Of a stretch of DNA of 36,136 bases, positions 11,065 through 21,264 are shown piece after piece. The position numbers and the translations under genes are program-made. Positions within the stretch are counted from its first letter, which is position 1, and every line of letters begins with the position of its first letter. Source of the stretch: Bacteroidales bacterium (GTDB lineage: Bacteria > Bacteroidota > Bacteroidia > Bacteroidales > UBA932). Under the pieces are notes generated by a model that saw only the letters and a list, made by a program, of their open reading frames with translations, was not told the origin of the DNA and searched no databases. The stretch is taken from the NCBI GenBank assembly GCA_017617035.1, contig JAFZWV010000022.1:1-36136 (forward strand), in the 5' to 3' direction.

Positions 11065-11090
11065 ACGCCTTCATGTCTGGTGGGCTTGAA

Positions 11091-11212
11091 GGTGGGACAC
11101 CGGTCACACTTTAGCCCCATATTCGTGACTGGTATGCACGAAGTTGGGACACCGGTCACGTTTTTGCATCTATTTCGTGGCTGGTGGGCCGAACGGTGGG
11201 ACACCTGTCACA
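11091..11212. repeat. Tandem 52-base palindromic repeat, locus A
   Basis: Three copies of GKTGGGACACCKGTCAC start at 11091, 11143 and 11195, exactly 52 bases apart. Each of the two complete units continues through a divergent middle to TTCGTGrCTGGT and a tail ending in GAA or GAAC. The tail (GTGACTGG) is an imperfect inverted copy of the head, so each unit can fold. The same unit recurs at 14826-14913 in the opposite orientation. It has neither an open reading frame nor transposase. Confidence 0.85.
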
Positions 11213-11222
11213 CCGGCAGCTA

Positions 11223-12194
11223 TCAGTAGGAGATTTTGCAGTGTTTAAGTCGCGAGTAAAGCAGCGAATCTATCACCCCCGCGTTCAGCAGGCCTTCAAG
11301 AGTCCAGGATTCACGGGGATTATTGTCGCGGTACAGGACAATTCCGTGTGCAACAGACTTGTAGCGGATATGGGGGTGAAGTTTGAGCGAATCCTCCGGG
11401 AGGGTCCAGAGTCGCAGCGGTCTTAGCGGCTCTGAACACTCTATCAAATCCTTCAACTTCTCATAACGTTCTTCTCCGAAGTTATATATCTCGAGAAGTT
11501 GTTCTGGAGTAGAATACCCACCGAGTTGGTTCCGGTAACTAACCATCTTAGAGGCGAAATATGGACCGATTCCCGGTAGGGCGTCGAAGGCCGCCGAGTC
11601 CGCTGTATTTATATCCAGTTTCGGGATATCGATAAATGGCTCGAGCCTCCGATACACAGAATCTGCAACCACATACGATTTCGCAAAGTCTTCTTTACGC
11701 CTGAACCTCCCACCTTTCTGTCTATAGCTGTCTATGCTCCGCGCCTGTTTCTCGCTGAAGCCCAAACGCTGAAGGTCCTCGACGCTTACGGTATTGGGGT
11801 TAAACCTGAACGACTCACGCTTCCGCGTTTTAGCCCGCACTGCCTGAACGATCTGCGAATGGGACGCGTTATGTCTTTCCGTGGAGATTTCTCCACTCGG
11901 TAGTATTGACACTCCTTTTGTCATTTCGAGCGAAGCCGCAGGCGGAGTCGAGAAATCTCTGTACACAAAGACCGTGTCAGGAGAATCTCTGTTCGCTTCA
12001 ATTTTCAGCTTCGCAGTGTGTTGCACAAACAGACACACCTGGTACCCGAGTATCAGGAAGGTAAGGGATATTGCTCCGACTTTGAAGACTGTACCGACGC
12101 TACTGGTCCCGGTACTTGTTGACGTGTTGCCCTCGCGGTTCCTGCGGGGCTCCGGCGACGATGATGACGATCTCGCCTTTGGGTTCGTTCTCAT
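11223..12194 (-). CDS. Membrane-anchored helix-hairpin-helix (ComEA-like) protein
   Basis: A 323-residue protein with a basic Ser/Thr-rich cytosolic N-terminus (1-36), one transmembrane segment at about 37-57, and an extracytoplasmic region with helix-hairpin-helix DNA-binding motifs: FNPNTVSVEDLQRLGFSEKQA (131-151, split here by no gap) and the canonical ComEA-type DINTADSAAFDALPGIG at 194-210, with a possible third near 280-312. ComEA proteins bind incoming DNA in transformation; in Bacteroidota the role of this group is unproven. Residues about 79-105 are encoded by a dispersed palindromic repeat. The ATG at 12194 overlaps the end of rsmI by 95 bases; no later start would keep the membrane segment. 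Confidence 0.8.
   Translation of the reverse strand: MRTNPKARSSSSSPEPRRNREGNTSTSTGTSSVGTVFKVGAISLTFLILGYQVCLFVQHTAKLKIEANRDSPDTVFVYRDFSTPPAASLEMTKGVSILPSGEISTERHNASHSQIVQAVRAKTRKRESFRFNPNTVSVEDLQRLGFSEKQARSIDSYRQKGGRFRRKEDFAKSYVVADSVYRRLEPFIDIPKLDINTADSAAFDALPGIGPYFASKMVSYRNQLGGYSTPEQLLEIYNFGEERYEKLKDLIECSEPLRPLRLWTLPEDSLKLHPHIRYKSVAHGIVLYRDNNPRESWTLEGLLNAGVIDSLLYSRLKHCKISY
11884..11959. repeat. Palindromic dispersed repeat inside the HHH protein gene
   Basis: GGAGATTTCTCCACTCGG near 11884-11900 faces TGTCATTTCGAGCG...CGGAGTCGAGAAATCTC at 11919-11959, making a long imperfect hairpin. The right arm is the same sequence found in rlmN and rnhA. It is in frame and encodes a peptide such as STPPAASLEMTKG in the juxtamembrane linker. 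Confidence 0.8.
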
Positions 12195-12820: not shown

Positions 12821-13447
12821 TTATTTGAGTTTTCTACGGACTGCCATCATAAGGCGATAGACCACCTCAGAATTAAGATTCCAATCCGGGAAGTTCGCGA
12901 TTACGTAGGAAACCGCTTCCGAGATGCTCTCCATCTTATTGAATTCGGAAATGGTGTTCTGGAACAGTGCGGGATCCTCTTTGAAGAGGGTGTTGATAAA
13001 CAGCACGCGGTCGTTGAGCGAAATAGCGCTGATTACGTTAGCCACCGGCCCGCCGGGAAGGTCTATCATCCACTGGTAGTTCTTCGCATCAGGAACTGTT
13101 TTGGCACCAATTGAGGCCATATCGATTGACAGGTCGATAGGAGATTCGGGCTCAGATTCCTTCGCTTCATCTGCGACTTCGCTCGGAATGACAGGGATGT
13201 CATCCCGAGGAGTTTCAGCGACGAAGGGATCTGTCTCTTCGCTTGGCAGATCGACATCAACGGGTTCGGGGATCACATCTACCGGCTCGGGGTCTGGTTC
13301 GGGCTCGGGGGCGACTGCGACGGCGATAGGTTCAGCTACTTCTTCTTTAAGAGCCTCCAGTTTCTCCTCCAATTCATCCAACTGAGCGCGGAGTTCTTCG
13401 ATAGTTGTTTGTATTTCGTTGAAAACTTCTTTTACGGATTTTTCCAT
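12821..13447 (-). CDS. Bacteroidota-specific protein of unknown function with coiled coil and conserved C-terminus
   Basis: A 208-residue cytosolic protein. Residues 1-38 form a coiled coil ([20 protein letters not shown]), 45-100 are a Pro/Glu/Asp-rich linker ([19 protein letters not shown]), and 125-208 form a helical domain ([51 protein letters not shown]). I recall this C-terminal region as conserved in uncharacterised Bacteroidota proteins, without an assigned function. Part of the linker (about 72-99) is encoded by a dispersed palindromic repeat. It heads a leftward operon with rsmI and the HHH gene and is divergent from tdk, 48 bases away. Confidence 0.75.
13154..13232. repeat. Palindromic dispersed repeat inside the 208-residue protein gene
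   Basis: A left arm with CTTCGCTCGGAATGACA (ending 13192) and a right arm beginning TGTCATCCCGAG (from 13199) face each other across a few bases, and the outer ends AGATTCC and GGGATCT also match as inverted copies. It is a diverged relative of the repeat in the rlmN, rnhA and HHH genes and is in frame in the linker. Confidence 0.65.
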
Positions 13448-17142: not shown

Positions 17143-17157
17143 CGCTCACTATGAGCG
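17143..17157. promoter_or_regulatory. Palindrome at the 5' end of the recA transcript
   Basis: CGCTCA (17143-17148) and TGAGCG (17152-17157) are perfect inverted copies around CTA. The palindrome begins about 8 bases downstream of the recA -7 box, so it covers roughly the first 15 transcribed bases. It could be an operator for an SOS repressor or a 5' stabilising hairpin (inference). Confidence 0.4.
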
Positions 17158-17164
17158 CAGCAAA

Positions 17165-17192
17165 CAAATATAGTGATTTTTGCTTATTTTTG
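17165..17192. promoter_or_regulatory. Mirror-image divergent promoter for recA (-) and rlmN (+)
   Basis: CAAATATA at 17165-17172 is the minus-strand -7 box TATATTTG of recA. TATTTTTG at 17185-17192 is the plus-strand -7 box of rlmN. They are 12 bases apart. The rlmN box ends 6 bases before its ATG. Confidence 0.65.
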
Positions 17193-17198
17193 CAGGAG

Positions 17199-18248
17199 AT
17201 GAAAGAGAAACTTTTAGGCAAATCTCCGGAAGAGTTGAAGACGGTCGCACAGGCCGCCGGGCTGCCCGCATTCGCCGCGAAGCAAATAGCGGAATGGATG
17301 TACGTAAAGCGCGCAAAAAGCTTTGCGGAGATGACCAACATCTCCAAGTCCGGGCGCGAAAAACTGGCCGAACTCTACGAGCTCGGAGTCTCGGCGCCGG
17401 TGGGCATCGCTCAGAGCAGTGACGGAACAAAAAAGTATCTCTTTCAGGTCGAGATTTCTCCACTCGCTTCGCTCGGTCGAAATGACAACGACAAATACAT
17501 CGAGTCGGTAATGATTCCCGACGAGGATCGCAAAACCCTGTGCGTCTCTTCCCAGGCCGGATGCAAGATGGGCTGCAAATTCTGCATGACAGGCCGCCAG
17601 GGCTTCCATGGTAACCTGGAGCCAGCCGACATCCTGAACCAGTTCATAAGCATCGACGAGTCGGCCGTACTTACCAACGCCGTTTTTATGGGCATGGGCG
17701 AGCCGCTCGACAACACCGACAACGTCCTTCGGGCAATCGAGGTGCTTACTGCGCCATGGGGCTTCGCCTGGAGCCCTAAACGCGTGACCCTCAGCACTAT
17801 AGGCGTGCTTCCGAGCCTACGCCGCTATCTCGACGAAAGCCGCTGCCACCTCGCTATAAGCATCCACAACCCCTTCCAGGACGAGCGCCTCGAACTCATG
17901 CCCGTCCAGAAGGCATGGCCGGTAGCCGAAGTGATCCGCATGCTCAAGGACTACGACTGGACTGCCCAGAGGCGCGTGAGCTTCGAATACACCATGTTCG
18001 CCGGCTGGAACGACGACCGCCGCCATGCCGACGCGCTCGCGAGGCTCCTTCGCGACATCGAGTGCCGCGTGAACCTCATCCGTTTCCATAGGATTCCCGA
18101 TTTCCCCTACGAGTGCGCAAGCCCCAGGGCCATGGAAGCCTTCCGCGACAGGCTGAACTCGCTCGGCGTGACCTGCACCATCAGGGCTTCGCGCGGGGAA
18201 GATATACTCGCCGCCTGCGGCATGCTCGCCGGGAAACACAACAAGTAG
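17199..18248 (+). CDS. rlmN: Dual-specificity 23S rRNA/tRNA adenosine C2-methyltransferase RlmN
   Basis: A 349-residue radical-SAM enzyme that makes m2A in 23S rRNA A2503 and in tRNA A37. The iron-sulphur cysteines are C122, C126 and C129 (CKMGCKFC); the two mechanistic cysteines are C115 (LCVSSQ) and C340 (LAACGML). An N-terminal helical domain (1-75) and SAM motifs GMGEPLDN and STIGV are normal. Residues 85-98 (EISPLASLGRNDND) are an insertion encoded by a dispersed repeat, between the YLFQV strand and KYIESVMIP, where relatives have a short turn. The start at 17199 fits the family; AGGAG just before the ATG is too close for a usual Shine-Dalgarno. Confidence 0.95.
   Translation: MKEKLLGKSPEELKTVAQAAGLPAFAAKQIAEWMYVKRAKSFAEMTNISKSGREKLAELYELGVSAPVGIAQSSDGTKKYLFQVEISPLASLGRNDNDKYIESVMIPDEDRKTLCVSSQAGCKMGCKFCMTGRQGFHGNLEPADILNQFISIDESAVLTNAVFMGMGEPLDNTDNVLRAIEVLTAPWGFAWSPKRVTLSTIGVLPSLRRYLDESRCHLAISIHNPFQDERLELMPVQKAWPVAEVIRMLKDYDWTAQRRVSFEYTMFAGWNDDRRHADALARLLRDIECRVNLIRFHRIPDFPYECASPRAMEAFRDRLNSLGVTCTIRASRGEDILAACGMLAGKHNK
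17451..17487 (+). repeat. Dispersed palindromic repeat copy inside rlmN
   Basis: This 37-base segment begins GAGATTTCTC and ends GGTCGAAATGACA, with CTTCGCTC in the middle. It matches 21205-21241 at nearly all positions and the right arm at 11919-11959 in inverse orientation. It is read in frame as EISPLASLGRND. Confidence 0.88.
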
Positions 18249-20736: not shown

Positions 20737-21264
20737 ATGGAGCAGAAGCAGACCATATATCTCTTCACCGACGGGGCTGCCAGCGGCAACCCGGGCCCCG
20801 GAGGCTACGGAGTCGTCCTCAAGTGCGGCGGCATCAGCAAAGAACTCAGCGGAGGCTTCCGCCTCACGACCAACAACCGTATGGAGTTGCTGGCCGTAAT
20901 TCGTGGTCTGGAGGCTATCAAGTGGGAAAACGCTACAGTTGAGGTCTACAGCGACTCGACCTATGTGGTAAAATCGGTCGAAGAGGGCTGGCTGGATACA
21001 TGGATAGCAAAAGGCTGGAAGAAGGTGAAAAATCCCGATCTATGGCAGGCTTTTCTCCCGCTCTACAGAAAACACAAAGTTACCTTCCACTGGCTTAAAG
21101 GCCATGCCGGGCATCCCGAGAACGAACGCTGCGACCGCCTCGCAGTAGCAGCCTACGGAGAGCCCGGCTTGCCTGTCGATGAAGGGTATGAAGCGCTTCG
21201 GAGCGAGATTTCTCCGCGCGCTTCGCTTGGTCGAAATGACAATAACGCAGACACATTATTTTAG
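20737..21264 (+). CDS. rnhA: Ribonuclease HI
   Basis: A 175-residue endonuclease that cleaves RNA in RNA-DNA hybrids. The catalytic acids are D12 (FTDGAASGNPGPGG), E50 (NNRMELLA), D73 (YSDSTYVV) and D133 (ERCDRLA), with H123 in KGHAGH. The conserved domain ends near residue 145; the tail 156-170 (EISPRASLGRNDN) is encoded by the dispersed repeat also found in rlmN. The ATG at 20737 was preferred to the in-frame TTG at 20728, which is part of the -7 box. pdxA follows after 3 bases. Confidence 0.95.
   Translation: MEQKQTIYLFTDGAASGNPGPGGYGVVLKCGGISKELSGGFRLTTNNRMELLAVIRGLEAIKWENATVEVYSDSTYVVKSVEEGWLDTWIAKGWKKVKNPDLWQAFLPLYRKHKVTFHWLKGHAGHPENERCDRLAVAAYGEPGLPVDEGYEALRSEISPRASLGRNDNNADTLF
21205..21241 (+). 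repeat. Dispersed palindromic repeat copy at the 3' end of rnhA
   Basis: This 37-base segment begins GAGATTTCTC and ends GGTCGAAATGACA; it is nearly identical to 17451-17487 and is read in the same frame (EISPRASLGRND). It forms most of the C-terminal extension of RNase HI. Confidence 0.88.

Follow-up and report, generated by a model that had tools for sequence, protein, structure and literature searches.

The rlmN gene of this Bacteroidales bacterium raises the question of how a 37-bp palindromic repeat came to lie, in frame, inside a conserved enzyme. The window, by which we mean the whole stretch of 36,136 nucleotides analysed here, is contig C7 of a 1.64-Mb draft genome (80% complete). 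We regard it as very probable that the repeat is a REP-type mobile palindrome that has spread in a Bacteroidales genus and whose in-frame insertions survive in loops, linkers and tails of proteins.

The host gene, rlmN (radical SAM, RlmN_N), lies at 17151..18248 on the forward strand, with an uncertain start codon (the candidates are 17115, 17151, which we adopted, and 17199, from the codon-usage gene caller). The palindromic unit at 17451..17487 (forward strand), which has a TTTC/GAAA outer stem and the tag TGTC on the reverse strand, encodes EISPLASLGRND, corresponding to residues 101-112 of RlmN numbered from 17151 and immediately preceding CKMGCKFC. Across a 26-row RlmN alignment, neither the radical-SAM cysteines C138, C142 and C145 nor C356 vary, and phmmer aligns the protein to E. 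coli RlmN (3rf9) with a 12-residue gap precisely at the insert. The insert is absent in all 75 readable named-genome loci (80 loci, five of them unreadable in both readings) and in all eight readable rows from 10 further genomes, and it is missing from distant relatives. The initial annotation had placed the repeat in frame at 17451-17487, just ahead of the radical-SAM motif of an enzyme that keeps its key residues, and its position, its frame, its absence from orthologues and the intact motif were all confirmed. The insertion site is a loop of 6 to 50 residues across relatives, a range that favours another explanation, namely that such peptides are native loops or linkers whose likeness in DNA arose by convergence or gene conversion and not by insertion. 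Loops of 35-50 residues occur at loci L088, L109, L075 and others without a recognisable repeat, and these are possibly older, worn inserts.

The window has three other sites. The rnhA gene (20737..21264, forward strand, with a Pfam match to RNase_H) contains a unit at 21205..21241 (forward strand) that encodes EISPRASLGRND near the RNase H C-terminus. This unit is a clean in-frame addition near the stop codon, just ahead of the conserved protein end: the window reads GYEALRSEISPRASLGRNDNNADTLF, compared with GYEAQKTDTLF or GYEATKTDTLF in L051, L052 and L054, and the insert was found in none of 20 relatives. As for a target duplication, none was established; the rnhA unit is compatible with 37 + 2 nt and the RlmN unit fits poorly. 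A gene with an HHH_3 motif (11223..12194, reverse strand, start uncertain) carries an inverted dimer, the outer half of which is a shortened, diverged unit with three mismatches (11884..11911, forward strand) and the second half, 7 nt apart, an intact 41-nt unit (11919..11959, reverse strand). Homologues match both sides of this dimer, and the HHH gene of L053 has a single unit at the same place (VSFRPSGASGEIS), so the insertion is older than their split. This gene was missed by the codon-usage gene caller, and its copy, genic by homology, is scored as intergenic in the counts below. The frame of the HHH gene also overlaps a TP_methylase gene by 95 bp (window 12100-12194), and probably one of the two start assignments is incorrect. 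Finally, a gene of 208 residues (12821..13447, reverse strand), which has no Pfam match and has homologues in relatives, contains, within a low-complexity linker, an inverted dimer whose units belong to related subfamilies, namely a TTCC/GGAA unit (13154..13193, forward strand) and, 4 nt away, a TCCC/GGGA unit (13198..13232, reverse strand), which together encode 27 residues; L053 has its own copy elsewhere within this gene. The copies that the initial annotation had listed in these three genes are thus all present, but those in the HHH and 208-residue genes are dimers and not single units. None of the four sites breaks the frame, as had been claimed.

Solved structures gave a mixed picture of what the inserts add. 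HutU, another host in this genome, aligns through residues 7-234 and 261-683 to residues 11-240 and 242-670 of PDB 6uek, and its 26-residue dimer peptide is left over with a single 6uek chain residue opposite. PrmC and TruB likewise show unaligned stretches at their inserts when compared with PDB chains. We rejected AroC and GH97 as clean insertion examples, since their repeat-derived residues align to an approximately equal number of native residues in the PDB chains. The absence of a net addition in these two proteins is the other point in favour of native loops, whereas rnhA and HutU are clean additions. In G113, a HutU that is 84% identical retains a garbled insert at the same site; copies would decay after insertion while the added residues stay.

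Genome-wide, the repeat is by no means restricted to the four sites. With a gap of 10-25, the search pattern matched three times in the window, compared with none in 100 dinucleotide-preserving shuffles, and 37 times in the genome, compared with none for a reversed-pattern control; with a gap of 8-24, there were 47 genome copies (reversed-pattern control, 0), and a profile model raised the number to at least 91. This is a lower bound because scoring covered 150 of roughly 2,059 first-look candidates. The covariance model, R1, derives from an RNAalifold structure with three pairs and therefore acts mainly as a sequence profile. The initial annotation had proposed counting copies inside and between genes, and we did so with the flanks of 85 of the 91 copies, the genes being called by our own codon-usage script: 47 copies are wholly inside called genes, 32 are intergenic and six lie on a gene edge. 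Forty of the 47 in-gene copies are flanked on each side by 20 codons or more and seven are within 20 codons of a gene end, where a few, such as C4:15218 (with the called start within the repeat), may be non-coding. The 47 copies are spread over 30 genes, all but one with a Pfam match, and the hosts identified by Pfam match and by eye include UvrC, PrmC (three copies), a penicillin-binding protein, a TrmB-like methyltransferase, AroE, TruB, AroC, a FolC-like ligase, RsmH, an M16 peptidase, IF-2 (two dimers), HutU, DnaX, RibF, HypA and an amidase. While 83.6% of the sampled DNA is coding, the in-gene share is below chance (47/85 vs an assumed expectation of 0.80, p 3.6e-7), so most in-gene insertions seem to have been lost. 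A rough retention estimate of 0.26 (about one in four insertions inside genes kept) presupposes that insertion is even and that intergenic copies are neutral, and we do not use it as evidence.

The units themselves have sharp ends, GAGA and GACA, and all of them end in ATGACA, which is TGTCAT on the opposite strand. The TGTC tag (GACA on the given strand) is at the end of every pattern-matched unit, outside the compensated stem; as the search pattern itself requires GACA, this tests the position of the tag and not its frequency. The stem starts with AT (ATTTC/GAAAT, with the variants ATCTC/GAGAT and ATTCC/GGAAT), the 5-bp outer stem is followed by an internal loop and a variable inner arm, a 3-nt tail reads CTC, and the units span 29-44 nt. 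The two free outer-stem positions are complementary in 64 of 64 copies from this genome and in 45 of 47 other copies, in at least four states, and because the changes are compensated, we conclude that the unit is a true hairpin. Columns 11/33, 13/32 and 17/28 covary, and the drawn structure has 91.3% of cells paired, compared with 80.2% in shuffles and 30.9-47.5% when slid, in a test where the structure was drawn on the same sequences. The single-stranded DNA folding energy of single units was no better than that of shuffles (z 0.25 to 0.95), and RNAalifold did not recover the drawn hairpin. A wider paired-stem motif found 109 units in 182 kb of repeat-selected DNA, compared with none in a mononucleotide shuffle. 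Neighbouring units no more than 60 bp apart are arranged with tags inside (TT) in 21 cases, with tags outside (HH) in two and in tandem (HT) in 11; 10 of the 21 TT pairs have a 7-nt spacer and 15 are wholly within genes.

These results weigh heavily against native loops as the source of the peptides. It is the DNA itself that is common to unrelated genes and to intergenic DNA, on both strands and in several frames, with the sharp ends described above, and the intergenic copies and compensated stems already contradict an origin by convergence or gene conversion, which we consider highly improbable. The preferred reading, a mobile REP-type palindrome, would have an element with an unpaired TGTC tag, a CTC tail and an imperfect hairpin, in whose AT-starting outer stem compensatory changes preserve the pairing. 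It would move both as single units and as inverted dimers, in which a short spacer separates the two inward-facing tags, perhaps through a single-stranded hairpin intermediate. It would land both between and inside genes, and in genes the survivors would be those insertions that preserve the frame, contain no stop codon and lie within loops, linkers or tails, so that housekeeping proteins acquire peptides such as EISPRASLGRND and VISSEAEGEVEKSP. We infer movement, because no insertion event was seen between near-identical strains.

To what extent the element is suited to coding can be judged from its reading frames. Units are readable in 4.72 of six frames on average, compared with 4.52 in dinucleotide shuffles (sd 0.09), which rules out an element specially open in all frames; because the units are no more open than shuffles, we see no design for coding. 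Two frames are favoured, EISPxAxLGRND and, on the other strand, VISSEAEGEVEKS. In this genome, 32 of the 47 in-gene copies use them, compared with 16.0 expected from the open frames (p ≤ 5e-5), and counting one copy per gene gave 19 of 30 against 10.0 (p 3.5e-4). These frames were picked after the data from this genome had been seen. The species G004 and G005 were tested afterwards: among 53 of their 92 copies tested, 29 are in genes, and 19 of these 29 use the favoured frames (9.4 expected, p 1e-4), or 16 of 22 with one copy per gene (7.0 expected). The peptide ISTERSEWRNL, which the initial annotation had named for the other strand as one of a kind common in hypothetical proteins, was found in frame in G005. 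Part of the bias may follow from dimer geometry, because, with a unit of 37 nt and a spacer of 7 nt, the dimer partner falls in the second favoured frame. The strong bias in three species could also mean that insertions were selected for a benefit at the protein level, for example new binding or regulation, and not merely tolerated. We consider such selection improbable: the hosts are functionally unrelated, the inserts decay, and genes hold fewer copies than chance would give, which is what the removal of most insertions would produce. Under the mobile-palindrome reading, the surviving insertions would be near-neutral for the proteins.

We compared the repeat with known palindromes through their published descriptions. 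The CGTC-tagged REP superfamily, in which TGTC is a frequent tag variant and CCTC another accepted one, the first stem pairs are AT and units occur in genes without a linked transposase, resembles our repeat as a short palindrome with a terminal unpaired TGTC tag, AT first stem pairs, genic units and no flanked transposase gene (PMC3733652). The two differ in that TT dimers predominate here whereas HH dimers are predominant and TT rare in the published families, in that an outer stem of about 5 bp, an internal loop and a longer, variable inner arm replace the published 8-9 bp stem and 4-5 nt loop, and in the larger in-gene share here (PMC3733652). A 3-nt tail lies on the side opposite the tag in both, but it reads CTC here and mostly CCA there. 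Our best reading is that the Bacteroidales repeat is a TGTC-tagged relative of this superfamily; because dimer type, loop and tail differ, we assign it to none of the four published CGTC families. RPE-4 and RPE-6 of Rickettsia have been assigned to the CGTC-tagged REPs, and this superfamily is known from some Bacteroidetes (PMC3733652). The resemblance to the protein-coding palindromic elements of Rickettsia that the initial annotation had pointed out therefore extends beyond behaviour to the tag and to the RPE-4/RPE-6 class. RPE-4, RPE-6 and RPE-7 share with our repeat the in-frame insertion in conserved proteins, the ATGAC motif, and the occurrence of decayed or different inserts at the corresponding position of orthologues, and their inserts have been reported at solvent-exposed positions (PMC3767692, PMC3733652); at the DNA level the comparison covered the published tag and ATGAC motif. 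Most of the listed RPEs are longer (84-192 bp for those tabulated in R. japonica) and belong to obligate intracellular Alphaproteobacteria, whereas short units and dimers are found here in gut Bacteroidales. RPE-1 is also inserted in frame in host proteins, including truB (PMC3733652), but is longer and has been described as of different origin and without the ATGAC motif (PMC3767692). REPINs and GTAG REPs with their RAYTs are similar in having hairpin units, inverted pairs and many copies but have a GTAG tag and a linked RAYT, neither of which was seen here, where units end in GAGA/GACA (PMC3116915, PMC2817692). In-frame RPEs and the activity of a guanylate kinase carrying an insert have been reviewed (PMC10969869, PMC2229807). 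Our literature search found no paper on such insertions in Bacteroidales, which is weak evidence that none exists, subscription papers being mostly outside the search.

The likeness of the inverted dimers to REPINs raises the question of whether the repeat is a classical REP/REPIN spread by a cognate RAYT of the host, that is, a Y1 HUH transposase. We searched for Y1_Tnp (PF01797) in 41 genomes and then in 24 more and scanned the flanks of the matches for units. Y1_Tnp is commoner in repeat-rich genomes (12/12, compared with 8/12 repeat-free genomes), and it is present in 6/6 genomes with at least seven copies, compared with 11/19 with fewer. This genome has six Y1_Tnp matches, one of them just 79 codons long, and none of the five Y1 genes examined has a unit in its 2-3 kb flanks. 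In the genus, none of 45 Y1 genes (of 51 matches) has a unit (≤ 3 mismatches) within 1.5 kb, and none of 29 further readable Y1 genes, in incomplete MAGs, has units on both sides. Units do lie 245 bp from a Y1 gene in G200 (two mismatches) and 482 bp from one in G268 (one mismatch), in both cases on one side, and a third Y1 gene has a poor match with three mismatches. The repeat-rich genomes with a single Y1 gene, G085, G066 and G268, have theirs from three different clades. That such a test can succeed is seen from the Y1 gene of contig C18, which has alongside it six copies (L133 3943-4219) of a 52-bp repeat that also occurs in the window, and a similar sequence on the other side, so that a linkage between units and Y1 genes would have been visible. 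In the window, this repeat forms three tandem 52-bp units (TGGGACACCGGTCAC core) at 11070-11225, downstream of the HHH gene, and the C18 gene is probably a transposase with its own 52-bp repeat. The Y1 transposases of the genus (L143 = G005:C18, L131-L136, L144-L182), which are about 290-370 residues long and score weakly against Pfam, fall into several clades that are very diverse. The suggestion of a REP-associated transposase was therefore not borne out, in that Y1 genes are present but none of those examined has the repeat on each of its two sides. With no linked gene and no single Y1 clade common to the repeat-rich genomes, we rejected a cognate transposase among the candidates and consider spread by a host RAYT unlikely. 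Instead, the mobile palindrome may be served in trans by an enzyme encoded at an unlinked locus.

The family is wide, as had been surmised, and its spread would be uneven through the species of one Bacteroidales genus and would continue, with other cores, through other Bacteroidota. The exact pattern is found in 78 of 300 genomes of the genus, each of these 78 having 1 to 53 copies (the maximum in G072); in the phylum it occurs in 39 of 395 genomes, which represent 21 of 171 genera, and this genome is counted in both surveys. The phylum copies often differ in their cores, which are nevertheless self-complementary, for example TCCCGAAGCCTCGGGA. In favour of mobility, G113, G085, G231 and G200 have copies that agree with those here in every base over 36-39 nt, although the long syntenic matches in these genomes are 65-79% identical, and the number of exact copies varies from 0 to 53 among the 300 genomes of the genus. 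The closest RlmN proteins from named genomes, 80-88% identical, are those of uncultured Bacteroidales, several of which are named for ruminant samples (RUG489, Tb.RUG.374, Yak_Rumen, Red_deer), and judging from these relatives the host bacteria look like ruminant-gut organisms. The exact pattern is also present in 18 stretches of viral contigs (L306-L323), which could possibly carry it from one species to another.

The hypervariable linker of TruB has been hit repeatedly. Recognisable units lie at several positions of this linker in nine of 25 repeat-rich relatives (G066, G231, G003, G079, G179, G113, G236, G200 and G247); the units of G003, G079 and G247 look alike and may represent one event, and a unit near truB in G004, which precedes the likely start, was left out of the count. 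If all genes were equal and each genome had about 30 hosts, we would expect considerably fewer than one hit in 25. The truB gene has been reported to carry REPs in three Proteobacteria and RPE-1 in R. conorii (PMC3733652). The repeated hits on the linker, together with the repeated truB and uvr gene hits in other phyla (PMC3733652), are further points for selection at the protein level, which, as argued above, we still consider improbable. In terms of mobile palindromes, we tentatively suggest, with somewhat less than even confidence, that the hypervariable TruB linker, and perhaps many loops that would pass for ordinary rapid divergence, consists of worn-down mobile DNA, and that palindromes which repeatedly insert in frame and then decay are a main source of the variation in length and sequence among loops and linkers of core proteins in these Bacteroidota. 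If this is true, some genes, truB above all, would be standing landing sites common to distant phyla.

Until now, protein-coding palindromes have largely been regarded as special to Rickettsia and Wolbachia, apart from isolated examples in other organisms. In the single genome studied here, dozens of core enzymes have been entered, in frame, by what are very probably mobile palindromes. Odd peptides such as VISSEAEGEVEKS in predicted proteins would accordingly be neither annotation errors nor domains. Because the genus has hundreds of sequenced species with widely differing copy numbers, the tolerance of proteins to insertion becomes measurable in it, including the rate of tolerance, the protein positions and frames that accept an insert, the decay that follows and whether the new loops remain.
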